Shown here piece by piece: positions 12,191 to 34,411 of a DNA stretch of 34,411 nt. Positions within the stretch are counted from its first letter, which is position 1. Every line of letters begins with the position of its first letter. The stretch is from Solicoccozyma terricola (Eukaryota > Basidiomycota > Tremellomycetes > Filobasidiales > Piskurozymaceae). A model generated the notes under the pieces. The model searched no databases. It was not told the origin of the DNA and was given only the letters and a program-made list of their open reading frames with translations. Position numbers and translations under genes: made by a program. The stretch covers positions 1,041,332 through 1,075,742 of the forward strand of contig BCLD01000009.1 of NCBI GenBank assembly GCA_001600875.1. The letters run 5' to 3'.

Positions 12191-13988
12191 TCAATAATCC
12201 ACCTTCCACCCATTCAACGGGTGGATAAACTCCTCTGCAGTGTTGCCGTCATCCACGCAGGAGAACGTACCATCAGAGTCCCAGGAAGGTCGCGATGGCC
12301 ACAGACAAATCTTGTCCTGCTTACTTGTCCCGTCCTCCCTTGTCCCGTTGAGGTAAGACGGAGCGACTCCGTCCTCTACCCACGAGATGAGCTGACCCAG
12401 CGCCTGCTGAGGGAAGGGCCCGTCAGGTTGGTAGCTGTTGACAGAGCAGTGTGCGGCCCCCGGGACGAGGAAGAAGCGGTAAAATTCGTGGATCTCGTCG
12501 TATCCAGTCGCATTTGGGAACATGGCATGACGGACCTTTTCGTGAAAGTGAGCCGAGGCTTCCGGGTAAAGGTTCGTGTCGGCTTCCCCGTGCCAATGAA
12601 TGAGCTTGCCACCCCGGGCTTGGAATCTGGTGAGGTCCGGGTAGGTAGTCTCCGTCCACCCGCCGTATTCCTGAAGACCCTCCTGCATGAGTGCGTAGAC
12701 GTCGTCGACAGTGATGTTGCCGTACGGGACCACGGTGGCAACGGTATTCTTTCGCACGAGGTTTTGGTAATAGGTACCAAAGAAGAAATTGTTCCCTGGG
12801 CCGAATGACTGAGTGGCGTTGCTCCATTGGACGGCGGCTTCGACGGTGAGGGTAGTGACTGGGCGGTAGGTCCAGAAAATTTGATTACCGTTGCTATCAA
12901 AGGCGCCGCCGTAAATGGCGTTGACGACGTCGGCGTCGGCCTGGGAGATGGTCCCATTTTTTGGAGATCCAGCGCCGCCGGCCGTACAGTTTGACCAGTA
13001 GTGTCCGACGCTGCTCGAGGCATCGTATTTGCAAAGCTCGGAGCGGGAGACGACACCGTCAACAATACCATCCAGTCCATCACATGCCGAGATGTAATCC
13101 TCCTGGATGGCGCGGAACGCACACGGACTCGGCCAGTGGTTGTGCTGGGCCATGGCGATGTTTGGCCACCCCTGCGCGAGCTGCATGATGGGGAAATACA
13201 TGGCCGGAGCGGCGCCAATCACACCGTCAAAGTCGAGTGGGTAACGTTGAGTGGACTGGTGACCTTCGCGCCCTCCCTCGGAGCAACCCATATAATAGGA
13301 CTTGAGTGCGTCGTCCGTCAGGTTGTAGAACGCGTTGGTGAGCTCTTTGCCGGTGACTGTCATCTCGTGAATCGCCTGGTAAGCGAAACTCTCCAAGCGA
13401 GACCAGGAGATGGTGCCGTTGACGGTGGACAAAAGGTTCGAGGAGAGCGAGGAGGAGAATCCACCAAAGCCTCCATCGGTGGCTCCCGAAGCTGCGCCGT
13501 ACGCGAGACCAGCGGGAAGGCTGCCAGCTCCGCTGACTGACCACCCACCACCACCAAGCGTGAGCCAACGGTCGTTGAACTCTTCCGTGGCGGGAAGCCA
13601 GAATTGCATTTGAATCTGTTGGTCGTCGTTAGTGGTGGGTAGCGTACCGCTGACAGGGTCCACTCACATAGTCGTCAAGATTATCATGCGAGAGGGACAG
13701 AGTGACGTTGCAAAACCCAAGATTCGAGGCACTGGGGTACATTGGACCATTCGCACTAGGTGTGACATTGTAGTTGCTGACGATGGCTGTTGTGATGTTA
13801 CCGAGGTGGTAGGTCACGGCATCGAGGTCGCTGAATCCAGATGCCAAAGAGGCGATGTGGCCGGGTGTGCAGATGTAGTTGAACGACTCCCAGCGGGCTT
13901 CGATCGACCGCTCGGAGGGGGTTGGGGAGGCGAGAACTGAGGTAGCACCGAACAGCGCAGCCAGGTAGGAGCATGTTCTGGAAATCAT
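12191..13988 (-). CDS. Secreted tannase / feruloyl esterase family hydrolase
   Basis: Two exons: 13988-13668 and 13615-12191; 581 aa. A signal peptide (MISRTCSYLAALFGATSVLA) indicates secretion, and many N-x-S/T sites suggest glycosylation. The nucleophile lies in YYMGCSEGG (Ser219), the acid in GEADTNLYPEAS (Asp453) and the base in PGAAHCSV (His496). Cysteines directly beside Ser219 and His496 form the CS-D-HC arrangement typical of fungal tannases and type B/C feruloyl esterases, where a disulfide links the catalytic Ser and His neighbours. A calcium-site-like CDGLDGIVDGVVS follows the nucleophile. The family cleaves gallate or hydroxycinnamate esters of plant material; which ester this one prefers cannot be read from sequence. 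Length is normal and the gene looks intact. Confidence 0.92.
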
Positions 13989-22438: not shown

Positions 22439-24506
22439 TTAGGCTTTCATTGCGAGCCTGTGCATGGCAAGAACTCCACCGTCGGTGATGATCTTGCGTT
22501 GGGCGCACGACATTTCGAGCCTGGGAGATGGTACGAGCTCCTCAGCGATCTTCTCGCAACTGGTTGATGCAAAGACTTACTGCTTGGCATCGGCATCTAC
22601 CTGCTCCTGATCCTGGAGGGGCCAGCTCAGAAACTCGTTCGTCATGTTGGGCTTGAAGGTCTCGGAGACGATGCCTAGCCTTTTGGAATAAGCGGTGACC
22701 TGAGGCATGGAGAGGTTAACACGGGCGGTACAGCACTTCAGCAAACTTCCCTCACCTTCTTCCAGTCCCTCTCCACATTGGCGAGGTCGGCCGACATGTA
22801 GTTGAACGACCTTTCGAATTGAAGTCCGTTCAAATGATTTTTCATGATCGGCTTGACGTCACAGTATTTCTTCCACGCCGTGACGGGATCCTTCATGAGG
22901 AGATCGGCGCCACGCTTGACGGCTTTCATGAAAGCAGCAGTCTCCTTGGGATGAGCCGAGATCCAGTCTGTAAGGATCGATACGTGAGCACCAGAAGCAC
23001 TCTTAGCTCATATCCACGGTGGACAAACCCTCGTTACCGCTACGAAAGAAAACGAGAGGCAACCTGCTGTCAGGCATGGTCACGAAATTGATGGGATCCC
23101 AACACGTACATGTAAAGGATGGAGCAGAAGCAGCCTGTCGCAATCTTCTTAGCCTTTGCAAGTGTAAATAACGCATGCCACACTCACAGCATCCCAATTC
23201 GGCCAATTGGTCGATACGGAGCATCTTGACGTCGGTGGTTGGCCTTCCATTGGCTCTGCACCATTCCTCCAGCTGCAACAAAATGCTCAAACGGTCAACT
23301 GCTCGCGGTCTAACAGACCGAGACATACGATCCGGGAACAGACATCCCTGGCGCATGCATTATCATGAGCAGGTTCGGGCGATATAATCTCAGCACAACC
23401 AAGTCGTCCCACGTCATCGACACGGGGTGGCATGACGGAGACGACGTATTGGAAGGCACTCGCTGCCTGTGAATTTCCCTTTCACGCTTTCTCATGGGAA
23501 ACAAATGGTCCTCACGGGAAGATGATCAAGATCCGAACTGCCTACTGGTTCACTCGCAATCACCATCGAGTACGACAATGGTTTGCATCGCGCGCTAGGG
23601 ATGTTGGCCGAGGATCGCGTTTCATCTTACCTCAACTTGTTGAACTGAGAATCGAGCGCAACAGTAGTCAGTCAGGGCATGAAATCAGGAGAGCGCTGCG
23701 GACCAGGCTGTAATCACTGTTTTCGAGTCCAATGCCGGCATCGATTGTGCCCTCAATGATGGCCTTGGAGATATTCATACCACACCTAACGGCAGTGTAG
23801 TCCTCAGGGGTCATACCTTTTGCAAACATCAGTACGTAGTTAGTACTGCATGCAAAGGCGAGATGGAGTTACACACCGTAATACTTGGTCAACTCGTCGA
23901 TTTGAATCTGGAGTCATGTGCTTGGTTGTCAGTCATTGAGGATTGGTGAAAATGATCAACACACCTTGCCAAACTCTCCAACGTAGCCGATGCGCTTATC
24001 CTTGAGACTTTTGAAGTCCGAGGTGACACCTGAGCCCTGGAAAGATATGAGGATTAGGGGATTAGGTATACCGCGAATGAGCAGCAACTTCAGCGGCATA
24101 CCTCCAAGTAAAGCACCCCTGTGAACGGTTCGTCCATCAAGGTACCGATTGATTTGATGGGAAACCCTCGAGCCTTGCCAGCGATCGTGTGAATCATTGC
24201 CTTGGTACCGAGATCAGCTTTGCCGCTACCAATCAGCTCGGTGACATCGGATGGGTCACTGTCAAGCCTCCATTAGACGTTTGAGATGGGACTCGGGAGG
24301 TGCTTGGAACTCACTTGGGCTCCAAGATGGCAACTTTGATACCCTCGTCCTTGAAGTAACCCTCGCTCTGGGCGAGGAAGATTGGAGCGTGGTAAGGCGT
24401 AGCGTGCCTAGGGGGGGGGGGAACCGACATCAGCGCAAACGATCTGGGAATAGTCGAGCGCGATCACACACCAGTTCAAGAGGCATGTAATCTTGTCAGT
24501 CGACAT
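22439..24506 (-). CDS. THI5: Pyrimidine precursor (HMP-P) synthase of thiamine biosynthesis
   Basis: Thirteen minus-strand exons: 24506-24472, 24407-24315, 24258-24102, 24036-23965, 23907-23877, 23816-23718, 23644-23631, 23272-23188, 23134-23110, 23063-23038, 22967-22756, 22699-22581, 22520-22439; 349 aa (yeast Thi5 is 340). It makes 4-amino-5-hydroxymethyl-2-methylpyrimidine phosphate, taking atoms from PLP and an active-site histidine. Conserved blocks are [51 protein letters not shown] with Lys62 (PLP) and His66 (donor) at the yeast positions, [24 protein letters not shown], and the iron-linked GCCCFC. Exon 7 is a 14-nt microexon (IQQVE). The following intron is 358 nt and carries a TPP riboswitch. 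A TATAAAA lies at 24574-24580, about 70 bp before the start. All phases agree. Confidence 0.93.
23342..23604 (-). promoter_or_regulatory. TPP riboswitch aptamer with long P3 insertion, inside THI5 intron 7
   Basis: Minus-strand elements, 5' to 3'. P1 is ACATCCCT (23604-23597), paired perfectly with AGGGATGT (23349-23342). P2 is CGCGCGAT with ATCGCCCG, one mismatch. The 5' P3 base GATGCAAACCA faces TGGTTGTGCTGAGA, so the conserved GCTGAGA sits at about 23394-23388. Then come GAACCTG (23376-23370) and the P4/P5 arm CATG-ATAATG-CATG, where the usual CTGG/CCAG pair is replaced by a compensating CATG/CATG around the invariant ATAATG. It closes with CG..AGGGA, as in the known THI-box. P3 holds an insertion of roughly 170 nt; fungal P3 elements are known to vary in length. 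The nearest 5' splice site is 26 nt upstream of P1 and the 3' splice site 69 nt downstream, so ligand-controlled splicing is the probable mechanism. Confidence 0.85.
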
Positions 24507-24930
24507 GGTGTGAAACGGTAGTGATTAAAGTAATTGTGCTGTTGTGGATTTCGAGCGAGATGTTCTCCACTAGTTTTATAGAACTCGCGAAAGCCCCATT
24601 GGTATAAGTAGATACGTGCTCCGTCAACTACGGAGCGCCGTTGCTTTGGATCCGGTTGCATTTAGCGTATCATTCTTGGCAGCTAGATATGGAGTTTCAG
24701 GTCGCGACAGAATCCAGAATTGAAAATAGCCCACTCTCCGCGCTAAAAGCCAAAACAGCGGTATCACGAACGGGTAGACGGGATCGACGGCCCCTCCACG
24801 GCCCTCCGTTCTCGAGCACATCTCCCCATGCGATTTGAAGGTCGTCGATGTCTATAACCCTGCTGCGTAGTAACCTGACCGTCCGACCTCTTTTGCACCA
24901 GTTTCTCTCTTACCAATTATATCCCTCACC
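24507..24930. promoter_or_regulatory. Bidirectional promoter between THI5 and THI4
   Basis: 424 bp between divergent start codons of the two thiamine-precursor genes. TATAAAA on the minus strand at 24574-24580 suits THI5; the last 60 bp before THI4 are pyrimidine-rich with a CTCACCATG start context. Such sharing suggests joint transcriptional control by thiamine. No second TPP aptamer was found here. Confidence 0.7.
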
Positions 24931-26752
<1,822 letters not shown>

Positions 26753-34338: not shown

Positions 34339-34374
34339 TTAGGGTTAGGGTTAGGGTTAGGGTTAGGGTTAGGG
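34339..34374 (+). repeat. Telomere repeats, six TTAGGG units
   Basis: Six perfect TTAGGG units in the orientation expected for a right chromosome end (G-rich strand running outward). They begin directly inside the coding frame of the truncated gene. Confidence 0.95.
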
Positions 34375-34411
34375 TTATAACCCTAACCCTAACCCTAACC
34401 CTAACCCTAAC
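34375..34411 (-). repeat. Inverted telomere repeats (TTATAA then CCCTAA units) at the window end
   Basis: After TTATAA the repeat switches strand to CCCTAA, five units plus one base. With the preceding block it makes a near-perfect palindrome centred at about 34377-34378. Confidence 0.9.

Follow-up and report, generated by a model that had tools for sequence, protein, structure and literature searches.

The window analysed here, a stretch of 34,411 nt of genomic DNA from Solicoccozyma terricola, contains a THI5 gene in which one intron stands out by its length, and the locus raises the question whether this intron houses a TPP riboswitch and by which splicing route such an element, placed deep in the coding region, could control the enzyme. 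In our view the intron very probably contains a true TPP sensor, an aptamer that reduces the output of THI5 at high TPP by blocking productive removal of the whole intron.

THI5 and its long internal intron

The gene for THI5 (NMT1-type HMP-P synthase) extends over positions 22439–24506 on the minus strand and consists of 13 exons that encode 344 aa; read along the exon chain from 24506 to 22439, 12 of 12 introns carry GT..AG ends. Its product matches PF09084 (Pfam NMT1) with 237.7 bits and is matched full-length by yeast THI5 (4h6d; residues 1–331, E = 1.4e-141). The CCCFC stretch, which we take to be the THI5/NMT1 HMP-P synthase motif, is invariant in 9/9 aligned sequences including the THI5 product. 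A protein database search with this product returned 1372 proteins at E ≤ 1e-20; among the best 120 of these, the top-ranking sequence belongs to Naganishia friedmannii (80% identity across 92%), the N. cerealis homologue is 76% identical at rank six, and Puccinia proteins (75–76%) and two unnamed proteins lie in between. Elsewhere in the genome, a partial duplicate (C24:16020-16506; L010:3021-3507) comprises THI5 exons 8–11 with introns and shows 79% protein identity in its best stretch. It was rejected as a second full copy, since it has neither a start nor the aptamer-bearing intron 7. No related DNA was found in viral contigs and plasmids. The window further carries a Tannase/feruloyl esterase gene on the minus strand at 12194–13663 (PF07519, 314.9 bits).

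Two microexons occur in THI5, one of 14 nt (23644–23631) and one of 11 nt (23039–23029). The former is exon 7 (minus strand), which encodes IQQVE jointly with the final base of exon 6 and across which the reading frame is intact when compared with eight aligned homologues. The exon is followed by intron 7 (23273–23630, minus strand), which bears the aptamer, is in phase 0, starts with GTAAGA, ends with TTGCAG and measures 358 nt compared with 53–73 nt for the other 11 THI5 introns. The initial annotation had described both the extent of this intron and its several-fold excess over its neighbours exactly, and its placement between the IQQVE microexon and LEEWC, within coding sequence, agrees with the exon chain.

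Aptamer layout, covariance-model scores and chance tests

The aptamer spans 263 nt from P1 to P1′ (23342–23604, minus strand), is supported by the RF00059 alignment over its 3′ half and by a shuffle test of the layout, and is followed by an intron tail of 69 nt. Helices P1, P2, P3, P4 and P5 are present in the correct order, and the motifs listed in the initial annotation (ACATCCCT/AGGGATGT, GCTGAGA, GAACCTG, ATAATG and CATG/CATG) were all recovered in place on the minus strand. With this complete layout, the proposal that THI5 carries a TPP aptamer within one of its internal coding introns is upheld, and the RNA would be expected to bind TPP.

P1 had been described as perfect. As letters, the 8-bp pairing ACATCCCT/AGGGATGT does exist, but its last three, inner pairs (CCT/AGG) occupy bases that P4 needs for its 3′ strand (CAGG) and thus clash with that helix; the remaining five fit the aptamer, so that P1 comprises 5 bp once P4 forms, with the 5′ strand ACATC (23600–23604) pairing with GATGT (23346–23342). 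In ensembles with P2–P5 enforced, where the CCT/AGG pairs are excluded by construction, ACATC/GATGT forms with a pair probability of 0.94 or more. Eight bases separate P1 from P2. For P2, reported with one mismatch, the helix itself is present but is better read as a perfect GCGA/UCGC (5′ strand 23588–23591, 3′ strand 23382–23379, from folding) plus a U-A pair, adjoining P3. The P3 arm is 194 nt long (23393–23586, from folding and the shuffle test) and is closed at its base by GCAAACCA / TGGTT(G)TGC, 8 bp with one bulge. It is followed by J3/2 TGAGAT (23387–23392), the conserved pyrimidine-binding motif, which fits the RF00059 consensus. The remaining core, placed by the RF00059 alignment and folding at 23347–23376, contains GAA, P4 (CCTG/CAGG), P5 (CATG/CATG), L5 ATAATG and CG, with one additional C at 23351; a five-base CC-GAA linker precedes P4 as in the Rfam consensus. 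In the RF00059 alignment UGAGA of J3/2, GAA before P4, UAAU of L5, GCG after P5 and GGGA after P4 are all present, and the departures from the consensus are the additional C between GCG and CAGG (J5/4) and the absence of a bulged G from P2.

At the gathering cut-off of RF00059 (54.3 bits), Rfam yields no match in the window, and we therefore give E-values for searches at a relaxed threshold. Under these settings RF00059 aligns to 23422–23327 on the minus strand with 29.1 bits, corresponding to E = 7.4e-4 for a 421-nt stretch, 0.061 when the window is compared with 4227 families and 0.01 for the whole genome with this single family. The covariance-model check proposed in the initial annotation thus ends below the cut-off, an outcome for which a long P3 has been published as a cause: RF00059 often fails on P3 arms >60 nt, and the mean fungal P3 is ~150 nt (Vargas-Junior et al. 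2024, PMC11683625, in its passages on P3 length). The alignment fits the 3′ half of the aptamer (UGAGAU, GAACCUG, UAAU, GCG, AGGGA) and puts the 5′ half on wrong bases, because the true P1 and P2 strands lie ~200 nt upstream across the 194-nt P3. Since the cut-off is not reached, assignment to the TPP aptamers rests on motif and helix criteria.

These criteria were compared with shuffled sequence, keeping the 3′ core fixed and shuffling the 229 nt upstream. When Watson-Crick pairs are weighted above GU, a P2 plus P3 base at least as strong as the real one arises in 4 of 20,000 shuffles, a scoring (GU down-weighted, shorter bulge allowed) that was chosen after a laxer one, with GU as a full pair, had been reached by 1423 of 20,000; both scorings allow the bulge present in the real P3. 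The native minimum-energy fold of 23598–23346 shows P2–P5 together, as do 5 of 1000 shuffles. P4 and P5 form, with the other helices present or not, in 713 of 1000, as expected with the core fixed. The 8-mer ACATCCCT arose in 64 of 20,000 shuffles. The folding energy of 23598–23346 is ordinary (z = −0.51; 61 of 200 shuffles are as stable). Taken as a layout, P2/P3 is unlikely to have arisen by chance.

Two letter patterns were also searched in the genome. CTGAGA..GAACCTG was discarded as an aptamer marker because it is nonspecific, occurring at 19 genome places compared with 19 for its reversed control. The pattern TGAGATNATA..RTAATG..GCG, picked after both of its places had been seen, occurs twice in 23.9 Mb (intron 7 and the sugar-transporter locus described below) and not at all in the reversed control. 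That the resemblance of this long intron to an aptamer arose by chance would agree with the genome-wide E of 0.01, which is modest by itself; yet the 5′ half, to which the Rfam score owes nothing, fits as well (4 of 20,000 shuffles), and out of the whole genome the match hits THI5, which belongs to the pair of biosynthesis genes where fungal TPP riboswitches are known. We regard a chance resemblance as extremely improbable.

The genome (23.9 Mb in 33 contigs; 49 of 912 first-look RF00059 candidates were scored) contains three places with RF00059 matches at E ≤ 10: one on contig C11 with 39.8 bits, intron 7 with 29.1 bits and one on contig C18 with 25.9 bits. The strongest (C11:305827-305983; L012:3828-3984) resembles TPPsw-SUGAR, has an ATG 44 nt behind it and is followed at a distance of 0.6 kb by a Sugar_tr frame on the same strand (L001:2255-3013). 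The third (C18:162801-162887; L011:4802-4888), with an apparently long P3 and TPPsw-AA-like, precedes an AA_permease frame on the same strand (L011:6637-6936) by 1.7 kb. The exons between these aptamers and the Pfam matches were read by eye, and the two nearer reading frames at the C11 and C18 aptamers have no Pfam match. Sugar- and amino-acid-transporter genes are linked to TPP riboswitches in Basidiomycota in passages of two surveys (PMC5882874, PMC11683625), and if the C11 and C18 gene assignments hold, three of three RF00059 matches sit in expected gene types. The positions upstream of Sugar_tr and AA_permease thus parallel the TPPsw-SUGAR and TPPsw-AA groups described in PMC11683625; in contrast to that survey, whose relevant passages report NMT1/THI5 riboswitches as absent in its basidiomycetes, THI5 carries a probable one here.

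Comparison of the three places also bears on the covarying P5 stem of the initial annotation. With strands picked by hand, P5 reads CATG/CATG, CAGG/CCTG and CGAG/CTCG, all fully paired; P4 and P5 are paired throughout at all three with differing letters, one G-U pair occurring in P4 of C11 and of C18. The claim, which one sequence by itself could not put to the test, thus holds in a small way.

The folded state itself carries a predicted energetic price. Enforcing the aptamer core costs 3.9 kcal/mol alone and 14.3 kcal/mol with the P1 flanks, the higher value arising because P1 lengthens to 8 bp and P4 opens in the ligand-free fold; in a longer context, with one more pair, enforcing the aptamer costs 18.7–19.2 kcal/mol. 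The full 8-bp P1 is therefore part of a rival ligand-free fold, and its extension against P4 is a plausible switching step in thermodynamic terms. This predicted cost in the long context, the additional C in J5/4, the absent bulged G and the score under gathering are also what would be seen if the aptamer were a decayed relic that has lost TPP binding. However, all helices and the conserved loop motifs are present, and RF00059 is itself reported to fail often on P3 >60 nt (PMC11683625, same passages); we consider decay improbable.

Splice sites and the proposed switch

Donor S1 (GAG/GTAAGA, 23625–23633, minus strand, with the intron starting at 23630) scores 5.9 in a donor matrix built from 14 local donors (11 from THI5 and three from THI4, the latter chosen by eye) and ranks below 13 of these 14. 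An in-frame TGA (23622–23624, minus strand) lies two codons past exon 7 and comes into play when the transcript keeps the intron or its 5′ part: the intron-retaining frame reads V-R-stop and the protein ends at 169 residues. Retention or mis-splicing would break the enzyme, as the initial annotation had reasoned, and a splicing off-switch via intron 7 is likely because of this in-frame stop. The direction, in which TPP would turn THI5 off, is predicted from known pathway logic and the premature stop. Without TPP, S1 (23630) would be joined to the acceptor at 23273 to give full THI5. With TPP, S1 would be disfavoured, and either the intron would be kept, as in Candida DUR31, or an inner donor would be used. 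Every product of the TPP form would carry the VR-stop after exon 7 and encode the 169-residue fragment, and would probably be a target of nonsense decay.

Between S1 and the P1 strand there is no GT, the first one after S1 lying at 23576 inside P3. Structurally, the leading inner-donor candidate is S2, GTATGT at 23323–23328 (minus strand), directly behind the aptamer and 13 nt past its end, which is proposed from length, score and pairing. The distance from S2 to the acceptor corresponds to a 56-nt intron, an ordinary length for THI5. Its score is 5.0, and GTGATT at 23563, inside P3, scores 6.8 in the same small matrix. A pairing of 7 bp (−8.0 kcal/mol) is predicted between GCAUGCG of L5/P5/J5-4 and CGUAUGU at the 23328 donor, reminiscent of the donor masking in N. 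crassa NMT1 described below; its strength is matched in 226 of 5000 shuffles (p ~0.05), and four of 12 real THI5 donors and four other intron GTs pair better with P4–P5 than S2 does.

When the free and aptamer-enforced folding ensembles are compared, predicted accessibility changes by at most 0.10 at S1 and at S2, and changes in the acceptor and branch region come and go with the chosen flanks. A helix GCGATCC/GGATCGT near the 23328 donor was dropped, its probability ranging from 0 to 0.94 depending on flanks. As no consistent, flank-independent folding difference emerges, no splice site is assigned from folding. The same calculations speak to a possible effect of the aptamer on recognition of microexon 7, in which high TPP would lead to skipping of exon 7 and a frameshift. 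The exon is only 14 nt long and lies directly before S1, as this would require; however, no state-specific masking appears at the exon 7–S1 boundary in folding, and skipping is not described in the literature passages on fungal TPP riboswitches that we drew on. We judge skipping to be quite improbable, slightly more so than decay of the aptamer.

Within the reading we prefer, productive removal of the whole intron is blocked, and the simplest case is that TPP blocks S1 and the entire intron is retained, with no need for an inner donor. S1 is weak, no second donor lies upstream of the P1 strand, unspliced RNA would meet a stop at once, and in C. parapsilosis thiamine raises unspliced DUR31 mRNA, the second-donor form being seen with and without thiamine (PMC5997356, in the passages on this gene). 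Against this stand the position of GTATGT at exactly an ordinary-intron distance (56 nt) from the acceptor and the predicted accessibility of S1, which the enforced aptamer does not lower. We put full retention somewhat short of an even chance. In DUR31, the closest experimentally tested example of an aptamer within an ORF-interrupting intron, thiamine mainly raises unspliced RNA, so retention would be no less likely than splicing from an inner donor.

A more elaborate arrangement would place the working inner donor at S2. The TPP form would then keep the whole aptamer in the mRNA as a 302-nt poison segment while the 56-nt intron is removed, with ligand-free extension of P1 against P4 as the switching step; such a layout would lie outside published Types I–IV, in a THI5 gene from a group thought to be nearly without THI5 riboswitches. 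As a whole, this arrangement is rather unlikely.

Relation to known fungal TPP riboswitches

The initial annotation regarded the position of the aptamer as unusual among well-studied fungal cases. This does not hold: N. crassa NCU01977, DUR31 and the predicted Type III introns had already been published (in the passages cited below), and both the riboswitch class and the coding-intron position are known. Riboswitches between exons were described in biosynthesis and transporter genes by Mukherjee et al. (2018, PMC5882874), whose Type III, in its description there, is an internal intron of 200–400 nt with a stop after S1, experimentally unobserved at the time; a later survey gives it as the second commonest mode (Vargas-Junior et al. 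2024, PMC11683625, passage on modes). Intron 7 shares with Type III the internal location and length (358 nt), one acceptor behind the aptamer, an in-frame stop after the first donor and a gene of TPP biosynthesis or transport. In the published form, as described in PMC5882874, the stop falls between two donors and precedes the aptamer, whereas in intron 7 no S2 lies between S1 and the aptamer, and an inner donor must lie within or behind it. Intron 7 may thus work like Type III but with another donor layout.

Other systems resemble it in part. In N. crassa NMT1/THI5 (Type I), the same enzyme is controlled by the same aptamer class, and when TPP is absent part of the riboswitch covers the second donor (PMC5997356, PMC7404189, passages on NMT1); that intron, however, lies in the 5′ UTR and acts through uORFs, whereas intron 7 lies far inside the coding sequence and would rely on a premature stop. 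Closer in position are NCU01977 and DUR31, where aptamer introns interrupt the ORF and yield premature stops on mis-splicing or retention (Donovan et al. 2018, PMC5997356, passages on these genes). For C. parapsilosis DUR31 the same source reports, by RT-PCR and reporter tests, that the kept intron gives a stop after 58 amino acids. NCU01977 (Type II) and DUR31 regulate transporters, whereas the gene here is THI5, and in DUR31 the second donor lies before the riboswitch, a region in which intron 7 has no GT (PMC5997356, passage on the DUR31 donors). Type II introns, in the description of PMC5882874, are 650–900 nt long and contain an alpha element that pairs with P1′ over a long range; set against the Type II features (650–900 nt, urea-type transporter, alpha element RGCGGYRRY), the 358-nt intron in THI5 differs in length and gene.

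The lineage is the less familiar part. Among fungal biosynthesis genes, TPP riboswitches are known from two, of which THI5 is one, and riboswitch-regulated NMT1 outside Ascomycota is given for just three species, two of them in the Basidiomycota figure (PMC5882874, passages on NMT1 and its figure). In the passages of PMC11683625 on 156 medically relevant fungi, NMT1 riboswitches are absent from the basidiomycetes. Our literature search returned no THI5 riboswitch case in a Tremellomycete, in Cryptococcus or in Basidiomycota from the passages it covered, and the survey species lists may contain an earlier entry. A THI5 riboswitch in a basidiomycete is thus a rarely reported combination of gene and lineage and mildly notable.

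THI5 is divergent from THI4 (thiazole synthase; plus strand, from 24931 to a provisional end at 26250, assigned from sequence with PF01946 on 25222–25401), and the two start codons are 424 bp apart (24507–24930). THI4 is the only genome place above the Thi4 cut-off, with two weaker partial matches besides. RF00059 gives no TPP match in or near THI4 at E ≤ 10, a search that a long-P3 aptamer could escape. Common promoter control of THI4 and THI5 from the shared 424-bp divergent intergenic region may act besides the riboswitch. At the end of the window, on contig C9, TTAGGG repeats at positions 34339–34411 turn to CCCTAA from 34381, a fold-back telomere-like array that is perhaps an assembly artefact and that places THI4–THI5 ~8–10 kb from that end.

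For the biology of thiamine synthesis, the locus contributes a probable THI5 riboswitch from the basidiomycetes, a group in which TPP riboswitches of biosynthesis genes were rare according to surveys. Because no riboswitch was detected in the adjoining THI4, control may differ between the two halves of thiamine synthesis despite one 424-bp promoter region. Intron 7 further provides a clear test case for the internal-intron (Type III) TPP switches that Mukherjee et al. (PMC5882874), in their account of this type, stated to be experimentally unobserved.
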